From positions 1 through 33,247 of the forward strand of contig JAGGTH010000015.1 in NCBI GenBank assembly GCA_021163845.1: a stretch of DNA of 33,247 nucleotides, written 5' to 3'. This document shows positions 7,025 through 18,936 of the stretch, piece after piece (within the stretch, counting starts at the first letter, position 1; every line of letters begins with the position of its first letter). This stretch comes from Helicobacteraceae bacterium (GTDB taxonomy: Bacteria > Campylobacterota > Campylobacteria > Campylobacterales > Sulfurimonadaceae). The notes under the pieces are model-generated. The model had not been told where the DNA came from. It searched no databases and saw nothing but the letters and a program-made list of their open reading frames with translations. Position numbers and translations under genes: made by a program.

Positions 7025-7206
7025 ATGAATTTCCTATTATATTTATAATTTTTAGTATGTAGTAGTAGGGAGATGTGATAGTGTGAATATCACTAAACGA
7101 GCCCTATTTTCCAAGTTCTTTTGATGTGATGAACACACAGAGGACTATTCACATCTATTCACTTTTATGATTATATCTTTTTTAAAGATTTTTTTCTAGA
7201 GATTTC
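7025..7206. other. oriC subregion 2 between dnaA and dnaN, with AT-rich unwinding stretch
   Basis: Gene-free interval downstream of dnaA. It holds DnaA-box-like 9-mers TGTGAATAT (7082-7090), CTATTCACA (7145-7153) and CTATTCACT (7155-7163). The last two are in the same orientation with starts 10 bases apart, an arrangement suited to cooperative DnaA loading. They are followed immediately by a very AT-rich run (7164-7206) containing the inverted repeat ATCTTT-TTT-AAAGAT, the best candidate for the DNA unwinding element. Known Campylobacterota origins are bipartite with unwinding in this subregion; placing it here is by analogy. Confidence 0.8.
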
Positions 7207-8511: not shown

Positions 8512-8612
8512 ATCTAAACCTTCGTTAATATTTCTGATGTGAATAGTAGCAATAATTTCCATAAATAGCGGTTAAAAATATGTGAATAAAAAAATTTCCC
8601 CAAGGTGAATAA
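8504..8612. other. oriC subregion 1 / dnaA-ruvC divergent regulatory region with four DnaA boxes
   Basis: Four 9-mers match the TTATNCACA-type DnaA box or differ by one base: CTATTCACA at 8504-8512 on the plus strand, then TGTGAATAG (8538-8546), TGTGAATAA (8581-8589, perfect) and GGTGAATAA (8604-8612) in the opposite orientation. The group covers the dnaA start and leader and lies just before the ruvC promoter. This matches subregion oriC1 of the bipartite Campylobacterota origin and would also let DnaA control its own gene and perhaps ruvC. Confidence 0.82.
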
Positions 8613-8635
8613 GTAAAATAAAGAGCCTCTTTGTA

Positions 8636-8641
8636 TATAAT
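8636..8641 (+). promoter_or_regulatory. Probable -10 element of ruvC
   Basis: TATAAT lies 30 bases before the ruvC ATG, downstream of the DnaA-box group. No clear -35 is seen, which is common for sigma-70 promoters in this phylum. Confidence 0.5.
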
Positions 8642-8671
8642 TTGTCTTACATTTGAAAGATAGGGAGTGAG

Positions 8672-16051: not shown

Positions 16052-16957
16052 TTGCCATTTGTATTAAAAAAAATGATAGCCCAAGAAAGACAAAAAGCAT
16101 TTCTATTTTTGATGCGTGAACTAGGGCTTACACAAAAAGAATCACAGCGTCTTATAGCAAAAGGAAGACTCCTAGTCGATGGTGAGCCTATGGTAAAAAC
16201 TTCAGGTGAGGTTGAGGGGATATTTGAACTCATAGACTTTGAGCCAATATCCAGAGGTTTGAAGCCATGTATGGTGCATGAGCGTTTTGTTGTCTTTGAT
16301 AAACCAAGTGGAGTTCTTATCCATCCACAAAATAGAAATACACAGTACTCACTTATAGACGAGCTTAAAGCTCAGTTTGGTCGTGATGCTAATATAGCAC
16401 ATCGTATCGATCAAGAAACGAGTGGACTTGTACTTTGTGCAAGAGACAAAGAGAGCGAGAGAGATATCAAGATGATGTTTCAAGAGCGCGATATGAAAAA
16501 GAAGTATCTCGCTCTTGTGCATGGTGAACTTAAAGAGGTACTTACTATTGAAGCGCCACTTTTGAGAAAAGAGGATGAGAGTGCGATAGTGAGAATGGTA
16601 GTCAAAGTTGATCCAAGCGGGAAAGCTTCAAAAACTGATATCCGCCCTTTAAAATATTTTTCTGATTCCAACACCACTCTTGTAGAGTGCTCCCCTTTGA
16701 CTGGAAGACAGCATCAGATTCGTGTGCATTTGTTTCACGTGAAACATCCGATCGTTGGTGATCCTATCTATGGTCAAACTCCAGAGAATATTATTCGCTT
16801 CTTAGATAAAGAGCTCAGTGCTGATGAGAGAAAAGAACTAAGTGGAGCTTCTCGACTTTTACTTCATGCAAACGAATTAGAGTTTGAACTTTACGGCGAG
16901 ACATATAATGTAAAAAGTGAGCTAGATTTTGAAGCTCTTTGCCTTTCTCACCTTTGA
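16052..16957 (+). CDS. RluA-family 23S rRNA/tRNA pseudouridine synthase with S4 domain
   Basis: Isomerises uridine to pseudouridine in RNA; the exact target (RluD-like is most likely) cannot be read from sequence. The N-terminal S4-like RNA-binding segment (about residues 20-60: GLTQKESQRLIAKGRLLVDGEPM) precedes the catalytic fold. FDKPSGVLIHP and AHRIDQETSGLVLCARDK hold the catalytic Asp, and SPLTGRQHQIRVHLFHVKHPIVGDPIYG is the conserved C-terminal motif. The start is TTG at 16052, supported by AAGGA seven bases upstream; ATG at 16073 is possible. The codons for LFHVKH form a perfect parS site (16731-16746). Confidence 0.9.
   Translation: MPFVLKKMIAQERQKAFLFLMRELGLTQKESQRLIAKGRLLVDGEPMVKTSGEVEGIFELIDFEPISRGLKPCMVHERFVVFDKPSGVLIHPQNRNTQYSLIDELKAQFGRDANIAHRIDQETSGLVLCARDKESERDIKMMFQERDMKKKYLALVHGELKEVLTIEAPLLRKEDESAIVRMVVKVDPSGKASKTDIRPLKYFSDSNTTLVECSPLTGRQHQIRVHLFHVKHPIVGDPIYGQTPENIIRFLDKELSADERKELSGASRLLLHANELEFELYGETYNVKSELDFEALCLSHL
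16731..16746. other. parS centromere site, perfect consensus, inside a coding sequence
   Basis: TGTTTCACGTGAAACA is identical to the bacterial ParB-binding consensus and is a perfect 16-base palindrome. It lies in frame in the pseudouridine synthase gene as the codons for Leu-Phe-His-Val-Lys-His. Chromosomal parS sites are typically near oriC, as here (about 8.2 kb from dnaA). parA and parB are not in the window. Confidence 0.9.
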
Positions 16958-16959
16958 AA

Positions 16960-16975
16960 TGTTTCATGTGAAACA
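16960..16975. other. Second parS-like site, one mismatch
   Basis: TGTTTCATGTGAAACA differs from the parS consensus by one central base (C to T). It begins two bases after the stop of the pseudouridine synthase, 229 bases from the perfect site. Confidence 0.8.
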
Positions 16976-17025
16976 TTGGATGAGAAGATACAAAGCTCGT
17001 ACTTAAAGTGAGCAACTGACAAAAT

Positions 17026-17246
17026 TGTGAATAACTTATCTCATTCTTCATATTCATTCACAATGTGATATTCCAATACTCACAAGAGCTGTACAAAAGC
17101 CCCTGTTTAAGGGTGTTTAATGAAATAAAAATTTTGTGAATTTCAGGACATATTTATATAAAATAAATATTAAACCAAGGAAGAATTTTCCAATTTATGA
17201 AAAAGAATATCAGTTTTATTCACATGTTGAAACACTGTGTGAATAG
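17026..17246. other. Cluster of five DnaA-box-like sites in a 440-bp gene-free stretch
   Basis: The interval 16,958-17,397 has no convincing gene. It holds TGTGAATAA (17026-17034, perfect box), TCATTCACA (17054-17062), TGTGAATTT (17135-17143, weaker), TTATTCACA (17216-17224, perfect) and TGTGAATAG (17238-17246), in mixed orientation and AT-rich surroundings, beside the two parS sites. It could be a DnaA-titrating locus, a third origin element or a DnaA-regulated promoter; the sequence does not decide. Confidence 0.7.
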
Positions 17247-17360
17247 TACACATATTTACAAAATATTCAATTTTTTTTCTACTGTTAGGGAATTTTAAGA
17301 TTGGAAAGTAAGTTTTTATGGATTATATTTCTATAAGAAAAGTAAGGTATTATTACAACG

Positions 17361-17393
17361 GTAAACGACCTCCCTGGTGTGTTGGTCGTTTAC
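17361..17393. other. Strong hairpin: possible terminator or small-RNA end
   Basis: GTAAACGACC and GGTCGTTTAC form a perfect 10-bp stem around a 13-base loop beginning TCCC. On the plus strand TCTTTTAG follows, a modest U-tract. It lies just beyond the stop of the leftward 78-residue gene. No rightward gene upstream needs it as a terminator, so it may end a short RNA transcribed rightward from the gap. Confidence 0.5.
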
Positions 17394-17397
17394 TCTT

Positions 17398-17634
17398 TTA
17401 GACTTCGTTATATCTTTTGATTATTTTTTTTACACGATTTTTTAGCTTACGCAATGCTTCTGTACTAGTAGCACCATCCGCTGTCAAATTTTCAAAGCCA
17501 TCATCAAATTGTGCCTTTGCTATCCATCCGATCTTTTTATGATACTTAATACCTACAAAGCGTATATCACCAAAGTGTCCTTTGCAAAGTTTATATATCT
17601 CTTTGATTCTTTGCGTATCTGTTTTTTGTGACAT
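17398..17634 (-). CDS. Unknown 78-residue basic protein
   Basis: I recognise no family. It is lysine/arginine-rich with a central strand-rich part (FVGIKYHKKIGWIAKAQFDDGFENL) and a C-terminal basic helix (EALRKLKNRVKKIIKRYNEV), so nucleic-acid binding is conceivable but unproven. A very good AAGGAG lies five bases before the ATG. It stands alone between the DnaA-box gap and the rlmN run. Confidence 0.75.
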   Translation of the reverse strand: MSQKTDTQRIKEIYKLCKGHFGDIRFVGIKYHKKIGWIAKAQFDDGFENLTADGATSTEALRKLKNRVKKIIKRYNEV

Positions 17635-17713
17635 TGTATCTCCTTTATAAAATAGCTTGTATTATAACAGCTATAAGTTTGTATTTACTTGAGTGGGATG
17701 TATGGAGATTAAG

Positions 17714-17731
17714 TACAGGCTTTAGCCTGTA
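17714..17731. repeat. Dispersed hairpin repeat, copy A (3' hairpin only)
   Basis: TACAGGC-TTTA-GCCTGTA is a 7-bp stem with a 4-base loop. The same hairpin ends the longer copies at 21,143, 22,581 and 25,470. It lies downstream of the leftward rlmN/small peptide run and may also act as a weak terminator. Confidence 0.7.
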
Positions 17732-17752
17732 AAGAAAATTTATAAAACAGAG

Positions 17753-17857
17753 CTAATTTTTTTTATCATCTTTTGTAGCGACTTTCATAAAGCCGACAAA
17801 GCCAACGACAAACACTAAGATCAAAAACACTAATTGAAAAATTTCTACTCCACCCAT
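17753..17857 (-). CDS. 34-residue single-span membrane peptide coupled to rlmN
   Basis: The frame encodes MGGVEIFQLVFLILVFVVGF followed by VGFMKVATKDDKKN: a short acidic start, one membrane segment of about 20 residues, and a charged Lys/Asp tail. The rlmN stop and this start overlap as TAATG. AAGGA six bases before the ATG, inside the end of rlmN, is a good ribosome site. These features support a genuine small gene; I know no function. Translational coupling to rlmN is likely. Confidence 0.72.
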   Translation of the reverse strand: MGGVEIFQLVFLILVFVVGFVGFMKVATKDDKKN

Positions 17858-18936
17858 TATATTTCCTTTTGTTTGGATTCTTGCTCTTTGAGCTGACCAC
17901 ATGCAGCAGAGATGTCGATCCCTTTTGAATCACGAATAGTACAAAGCAAACCGTGTTTTACAAGATACTCTTGAAACGCGATCATATCTTCACGCGTCGG
18001 ACGATCGTAGTCACTTCCTGGATAGGGATTGAAATAAATTAGATTTACTTTTGCCTTGATGCCACTGAGAAGCTTTACAAGTTTTTTTGCTGAGGCGATA
18101 TCGTCATTTTTGTTTTTGATCACCAAATATTCAAACATCACCCTTTTTCTAGTATCGATTGGGAAGCGCTTCACTGCATCGATGATCGACTGAATGTTGT
18201 GCGCCTTATTCATTGGAATAAGCTCTGTACGTAGTTCATCATCCACCGCATGAAGCGAGATGGCGATATGTACACCAAGATCCATTTCACCGAGCTTGTC
18301 TATCTTTGAGCTCAGACCACTTGTAGAGACCGTTTGGCGTTTTCCTGAGATACATAGTCCATCATCTTCTTGAAAGATCTCTATCGCTTTGGCGAGGTTA
18401 TCAAGGTTGTCAAGTGGCTCACCCATTCCCATATAGACAATATTGAGCATTCTATTGTGTTTGTGCTCATTATCACGCTTGAGTGCTACAACCTGCCCTA
18501 CGATCTCCCCAGCACTGAGATCACGCGTAAAACCACCCTTTGCTGTAAGACAAAAAGAGCATCCTACCTTACATCCCACTTGTGTTGAGACACAGATAGT
18601 ATATTTTGCTTCTTGGGTGATTTGCCCTGCTTCGTCGTACTGGGTCTCTTTCATCTTGAGCCACACAGCTTCGATCGTTTTGCCATCTTGGAGCTCTAAG
18701 AGATATTTGATCGTGCCATCGCTTGAGATTTCTTTTTTGATGATATGAAGTGGACTTACTAGATATTTTTCTTCAAGCTCCTCTTTGAGTGCTTTGGGAA
18801 TATTTTTCATCGCTTCATAATTCTCGGCATAATGGTGATAGAGCCATCCATAGATCTGCTTTGCACGAAAACTAGGTTTGACGATGCTTTGAAGCTCTTT
18901 GAGGGTAAAGTCTAGGAGTGAGGGTTTGAGACTCAT
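17857..18936 (-). CDS. rlmN: Dual-specificity 23S rRNA/tRNA m2A methyltransferase RlmN
   Basis: Radical SAM enzyme that methylates C2 of A2503 in 23S rRNA and A37 in some tRNAs. 359 residues. The N-terminal helical domain (FRAKQIYGWLYHHY) is followed by the radical SAM barrel with CKVGCSFC, whose three Cys bind the 4Fe-4S cluster. MGMGEPLDNLDNL, RQTVSTSG, HAVDDELRTELIPMN and the C-terminal catalytic Cys (ISAACGQL) are all present. The start ATG overlaps the phosphorylase stop as ATGA, so the genes are translationally coupled; GAGGAG is 13 bases upstream. Confidence 0.95.
   Translation of the reverse strand: MSLKPSLLDFTLKELQSIVKPSFRAKQIYGWLYHHYAENYEAMKNIPKALKEELEEKYLVSPLHIIKKEISSDGTIKYLLELQDGKTIEAVWLKMKETQYDEAGQITQEAKYTICVSTQVGCKVGCSFCLTAKGGFTRDLSAGEIVGQVVALKRDNEHKHNRMLNIVYMGMGEPLDNLDNLAKAIEIFQEDDGLCISGKRQTVSTSGLSSKIDKLGEMDLGVHIAISLHAVDDELRTELIPMNKAHNIQSIIDAVKRFPIDTRKRVMFEYLVIKNKNDDIASAKKLVKLLSGIKAKVNLIYFNPYPGSDYDRPTREDMIAFQEYLVKHGLLCTIRDSKGIDISAACGQLKEQESKQKEI

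Follow-up and report, generated by a model that had tools for sequence, protein, structure and literature searches.

A putative DnaA-binding module with fixed geometry near the bipartite replication origin of Sulfurimonas and related genera

In genomes of Sulfurimonas and other genera of its family, three DnaA boxes (A, B and C) and an AT-rich dyad form a module of fixed geometry that lies near the replication origin and outside it. A DnaA module beside an origin of the Sulfurimonas type is previously undescribed. From the features of the site, we lean slightly towards reading it as an origin-vicinal DnaA-binding regulatory module, which would be neither an origin nor a joint element with the neighbouring parS sites. 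As the module is kept across the whole family, it probably helps to control the time of chromosome copying. Little is established on how Campylobacterota confine initiation to a single round per cycle; the papers cited here name HobA and the HP1021-type repressor as regulators. A family-conserved DnaA module with fixed geometry outside oriC is a concrete, testable candidate for initiation control.

Results

A dense cluster of DnaA boxes next to rluA

The site was analysed in a stretch of 33,247 nucleotides from a Helicobacteraceae bacterium (family Sulfurimonadaceae; contig JAGGTH010000015.1), here called the window. It is located about 8.5 kb from dnaA. Its features and, for reference, those of the origin region are the following:

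7025-7206: oriC2 (between dnaA and dnaN), containing an AT region and the DnaA-trio-like TAGTAGTAG
8563-8671: oriC1 (dnaA-ruvC intergenic region), with DnaA boxes
16052-16957, plus strand: rluA-family pseudouridine synthase gene (open reading frame and homology; the orthologue adjoins the same site in relatives)
16731-16746: parS1, TGTTTCACGTGAAACA, perfect, within the 3' part of the rluA coding sequence
16960-16975: parS2, TGTTTCATGTGAAACA, one mismatch, starting 2 bp past the rluA stop codon
17026-17034, minus strand: DnaA box A, TTATTCACA
17054-17062, plus strand: extra DnaA box, TCATTCACA, which relatives do not have
17100-17113: terminator-like hairpin, CCCCTGTTTAAGGG, from a scan
17135-17143, minus strand: extra DnaA-like box, AAATTCACA, which relatives do not have
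17141-17208: AT-rich element, composed of the dyad TTTCAG-N5-ATTTATATAAAA-N4-ATATTAAA and further AT-rich sequence after it
17216-17224, plus strand: DnaA box B, TTATTCACA
17225-17237: B-C spacer, conserved, genus consensus ..TTAGAACAATG
17238-17246, minus strand: DnaA box C, CTATTCACA, its start exactly 22 bp past that of B
17247-17252: TACACA directly after box C, which many relatives share (alignment)
17348-17353, plus strand: putative -10 element TATTAT within conserved GGTATTATTACA, proposed from conservation
17361-17393, plus strand: covarying hairpin, stem GTAAACGACC/GGTCGTTTAC, 13-nt loop TCCCTGGTGTGTT; candidate tiny RNA
up to about 17399: T-rich tail of the covarying hairpin
17398-17634, minus strand: convergent small open reading frame of 78 aa, read from the sequence

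The 440 bp between rluA (plus strand) and the 78-aa reading frame (minus strand), at 16958-17397, had been described as a stretch without genes. They are indeed free of protein genes, but hold the AT-rich dyad and the covarying hairpin, neither of which had been noted before. As the flanking genes converge, neither has its promoter in this interval. Homologues of the 78-aa reading frame occur at the equivalent place in 33 of 94 loci. CCC..GGG hairpins like that at 17100-17113, which is probably the rluA terminator, do so in 52 of 80.

All five boxes of the window, which the preliminary description had listed as DnaA-box-like 9-mers, match HHATTCACA, the consensus from DMS footprints of DnaA of the congener S. 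denitrificans (PMC5043019). Box density in the rest of the genome had been named as a test of the site. When the background was counted on 1.62 Mb (72%) of the window's own genome, 144 HHATTCACA boxes were obtained, and the window site, with five boxes in 221 bp, was the densest cluster of this sampled part, exceeding oriC1. Three boxes in 250 bp were otherwise found only at oriC1 and at one nrdB site within the same 72%, and by a Poisson estimate about 0.0002 windows holding at least four boxes would be expected. Pairs of boxes in inverted orientation, separated by at most 30 bp, occur at four places genome-wide, two of them here, one at oriC and one elsewhere.

An inverted ATTCACA pair outside the origin region is located at G000:C51:8086-8129. 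The nrdB cluster (G000 contig C46, locus L304, 2901-3300) is the second-densest of the sampled genome; four DnaA boxes, three of them within 82 bp, are placed at the start of this gene for the small subunit of ribonucleotide reductase. In E. coli, DnaA also controls nrdAB.

Boxes A, B and C and the AT-rich dyad keep fixed spacings

Geometry was counted on 85 non-redundant full-length loci with at least 600 bp of upstream sequence. Since most of them were found via the hairpin, they were not selected on the boxes; co-occurrence with the hairpin, in turn, was selected for in the hairpin-found loci. Unselected evidence comes from the genome searches with a core profile (AT dyad, B and C) and with a hairpin model, and from a parS-anchored set of loci. 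Throughout, related genomes are non-independent observations.

In the genomes of the same genus that were compared, the cluster reduces to A (minus strand), B (plus strand) and C (minus strand), with A about 188 bp before B and C exactly 22 bp after it. The 22-bp B/C pair is present in 81 of the 85 full-length loci. Conservation of the boxes in relatives had also been named as a test, and A together with B/C was found in 77 of the 85. Box A reads TTATTCACA in 73 of 77 scored loci; the B/C spacing is 21 bp in Sulfuricurvum. The AT-rich dyad lies between A and B; in 69 of 80 loci its distance to B is 64-65 bp, and its consensus, TTTCAG-N4-ATTTATATAAAT-N3-TTCTTAAA, occupies near-invariant alignment columns. 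Helical phasing of A to B was not significant. The motif TGTTWCW, which we take to be the HP1021-type box, is present in the window spacer and absent from most relatives.

Searched in 299 genomes of the order, the core profile gave one strong match per genome in all 17 Sulfurimonas genomes sampled, and it matched 10 of 12 genomes from other genera of the family; outside the family, matches among these genomes were at chance level only. Where module and dnaA are on one contig, they are about 7-16 kb apart in most genomes. A few genomes have a larger distance, G001 about 24 kb and G026 57 kb, which counts against an origin-vicinal module. The Sulfuricurvum module adjoins ruvC-dnaA, with the parS in rluA about 2.4 kb off (L121, L140).

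Loci of genus g27 (L253, L255, L256) show a clear B/C pair with the conserved spacer, far from the hairpin and with no recognisable AT element; this is possibly a reduced form of the module. Four genomes placed in the same genus as the window (G006, G024, G034, G035) are without a close rluA orthologue or a hairpin match, which may reflect gaps in the assemblies or the divergence of their lineage.

B and C change at their first positions independently of each other and within the limits of the DnaA consensus, as two separate DnaA sites would. Because of this independent variation of the outer positions, B/C as the stem of an RNA hairpin was rejected. Conservation extends past the boxes into the B-C spacer (TTAGAACAATG) and the TACACA after C. 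This would agree with a palindromic site of an unrelated transcription factor that only resembles DnaA boxes, and DnaA binding alone gives no account of the conserved spacer and the AT dyad, which counts against a DnaA module. However, all three boxes, including the isolated box A, match the DnaA consensus position by position, their variation falls mostly on the tolerated first positions, and no protein-gene promoter faces the site. A transcription-factor site is thus, in our judgement, quite improbable.

The module is additional to oriC1 and oriC2

Few duplexes of the window are as unstable as the AT element, which is in this respect similar to the AT region of oriC2. It would therefore also fit an unwinding site, which counts against a regulatory module. 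The preliminary description had considered a third origin module. In such a module, DnaA at B/C would unwind the AT-rich element and load the helicase; besides the instability of the element, its fixed spacing from B and its closeness to dnaA are consistent with this. Yet no DnaA-trio (TAG repeat) was seen between box and AT element, unlike in oriC2 with its TAGTAGTAG, and the canonical oriC1/oriC2 pattern is retained next to dnaA in the genus. Unwinding in S. denitrificans was mapped to oriC2 (PMC5043019), and IGR2 of C. jejuni, which is bound by DnaA and predicted to be unstable, neither unwinds nor supports a minichromosome (PMC6052347). Taken together, these points make a third origin quite unlikely. 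Since oriC1 and oriC2 each keep their own conserved box pattern beside dnaA across the genus, the DnaA module is additional to oriC and not a displaced part of it. The DnaA-trio-like sequence of oriC2 is at window positions 7057-7070, beside its AT-rich part.

parS and the module are separable

Apart from parS1 and parS2, no sequence in the whole 2.24-Mb draft genome matches the parS 14-mer with one mismatch or none. They have the hallmarks of chromosomal parS: a palindrome of 16 bp (TGTTTCACGTGAAACA), few deviations from it, and a place near the origin. A motif search for ParB gave no match in the sampled 72% of the genome. A parS inside rluA is also found in several other families of the order, which lack the DnaA-box cluster, and is older than the DnaA module. 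In most Sulfurimonas a second parS is present near hisF, about 3.5 kb away, and 11 other relatives with the hairpin as well as two other genera (L246, L249) have one positioned like parS2. The second parS has changed place, between the vicinity of hisF in most Sulfurimonas and the position directly 3' of rluA.

ParB on parS and DnaA on the module might act together as a centre of segregation and initiation, with coupling of the Soj/ParA-DnaA type. Such a joint centre had been proposed, and it would agree with a parS no more than 465 bp from box A in 75 of the 85 full-length loci and with the parS between rluA and module in L246 and L249. On the other hand, other families have parS in rluA without the module, the Sulfuricurvum module is about 2.4 kb from parS, and parS and a DnaA module are both expected near the origin anyway. 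The occurrence of parS without the module elsewhere and the gap in Sulfuricurvum indicate that parS and module are separable neighbours at the origin. As one functional unit the proposed joint centre is not supported, although a looser functional link is conceivable, and we consider the joint proposal the least probable of the readings discussed here.

A covarying hairpin adjoins the module

The hairpin at 17361-17393 has the stem variants ACGACC/GGTCGT, GCGACC/GGTCGC, ACGGTC/GACCGT and GCGGCT/AGCCGC across genera. Seven of eight stem pairs are altered on both sides, which was reached by none of 500 shuffles; the base pairs are maintained by compensatory changes, as in a structured RNA, and the hairpin has z = -3.2. 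Its 13-nt loop is invariant save for the second base (93%) in 99 Sulfurimonas and Sulfuricurvum loci. As the search pattern that yielded these loci already prescribes a large part of the loop, the independent evidence is the genome search with the hairpin model. The loop is nearly invariant in other genera also (TCCCTGGAGTGTT, CTCCTGGTGTGTT). Of 46 family genomes sampled, 45 have a match to a covariance model of the hairpin; about 350 genomes outside the family gave no convincing match, and an Rfam scan of 16700-17900 gave no family match at E up to 1. The hairpin is single copy per genome.

Upstream of the hairpin lies the conserved promoter-like GGTATTATTACA; a generic sigma-70 scan did not list this -10-like element and returned promoter numbers at about chance. 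An ordinary terminator is unlikely, as the loop is nearly invariant while the stem covaries. From these sequence patterns, a tiny RNA gene is the best reading of the hairpin, and it is a candidate for a new RNA family. A literature search for small RNAs of Sulfurimonas or for clusters of DnaA boxes beyond oriC returned only the 2016 oriC paper.

In most genomes the hairpin adjoins the module and the orientation of the two to each other is unchanged, even in the rearranged Sulfuricurvum. This retained adjacency raises the question of whether the boxes are the DnaA-controlled promoter region of the tiny hairpin RNA. A and B/C would then be helix-phased with the promoter, DnaA would switch the RNA on or off in step with the cell cycle, and the CCUCC-containing loop of the RNA would act on target mRNAs. 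The covariation and family-wide occurrence of the hairpin and the conserved promoter-like sequence upstream of it are in line with this reading. The distances from B to the hairpin cluster at steps of about 10.7 bp (R = 0.54; grouped null, p = 0.005); on unique distances the phasing reaches only p = 0.08, and it is no more than suggestive. However, the hairpin is distant from the module core in three g27 genomes and 45 kb away from it in G334, and in most loci 200-370 bp separate the hairpin from A and the AT dyad upstream of it, beyond what a simple promoter needs. As module and hairpin are apart in g27 and G334, the module is not merely the promoter of the hairpin, and we regard the promoter reading as unlikely.

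Discussion

The preliminary description had suggested, among other roles, a segregation centre that also titrates DnaA as datA does in E. coli. Boxes far above background and conserved in relatives are consistent with a DnaA-control site, the control itself being a prediction. For the regulatory module that we slightly favour, we infer DnaA binding, DNA bending, looping and an effect on initiation. DnaA would bind at box A and at the inverted boxes B and C, and the AT-rich dyad at its fixed distance from B would bend the DNA or bind an architectural protein. The bent DNA would bring A to B/C in one defined nucleoprotein complex; the fixed spacings argue for such a complex rather than for mere titration, which needs none. 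Being about 8.5 kb from dnaA, the module would be copied soon after initiation, so that a second complex would form early. This second complex may alter the DnaA available or active at oriC, the conceivable routes being sequestration, a change of nucleotide state, or bridging to oriC.

One earlier result may bear on this model. A putative 'oriC3' fragment of S. denitrificans did not bind DnaA (PMC5043019). This fragment might be the present module, and its lack of binding would then count strongly against a DnaA module.

The DnaA switch site and the adjacent tiny RNA could also form a family-specific replication-control locus, in which occupancy of A, B and C would set transcription of the RNA and the RNA, through its nearly invariant CCUCC-containing loop region, would feed back on initiation or division genes. 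We think of this combined scheme as a rather speculative, minor possibility.

If the favoured regulatory role is true, the module would be an independently evolved counterpart of datA and DARS. datA is defined by promoting hydrolysis of ATP-DnaA, and DARS promotes the exchange of ADP for ATP on DnaA. By analogy, our best reading is that the module may work like datA/DARS or like IGR2 of C. jejuni.

Among the known elements, bacterial parS are likewise canonical 16-bp sites near dnaA, and those of the window are unusual only in their placement, one within rluA and one directly after it. The bipartite oriC1-dnaA-oriC2 of Epsilonproteobacteria (PMC5043019) shares with the module the box consensus, a genus-conserved pattern and a similarly unstable AT element, whereas the module is about 8.5 kb away, shows no DnaA-trio and has its dyad AT element between boxes.

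E. coli datA is likewise a non-coding, non-origin box cluster with a bending or accessory element between boxes at fixed spacing, and its position relative to oriC is conserved, as is that of the module. In datA the spacing of the DnaA boxes to the IHF site matters (PMC4585315); the module keeps a fixed spacing to its AT dyad, and no IHF site was identified in it. The module is about 8.5 kb from dnaA, and its possible likeness to datA is one of general layout. Moreover, an origin-near region of high box density in E. coli was reported to titrate DnaA (PMC12371093). DARS1 and DARS2 resemble the module as non-origin sites with few DnaA boxes in a conserved arrangement; the module differs in that B and C are 13 bp apart and A is about 190 bp away.

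Within the same order, IGR2 of C. jejuni, which lies beyond ruvC, is a target of DnaA; electron micrographs show DnaA complexes that span oriC and IGR2, without unwinding at IGR2 (PMC6052347). IGR2 is thus DnaA-bound, whereas the module is a sequence-level prediction whose profile is at chance level outside the family; C. jejuni boxes 12 and 13 are separated by 104 bp, and an A/AT/B/C geometry has not been described for them. As in the module, the boxes of IGR2 are intergenic, near but outside oriC, in DNA predicted to be helically unstable, and the Sulfuricurvum module occupies the equivalent place beyond ruvC.
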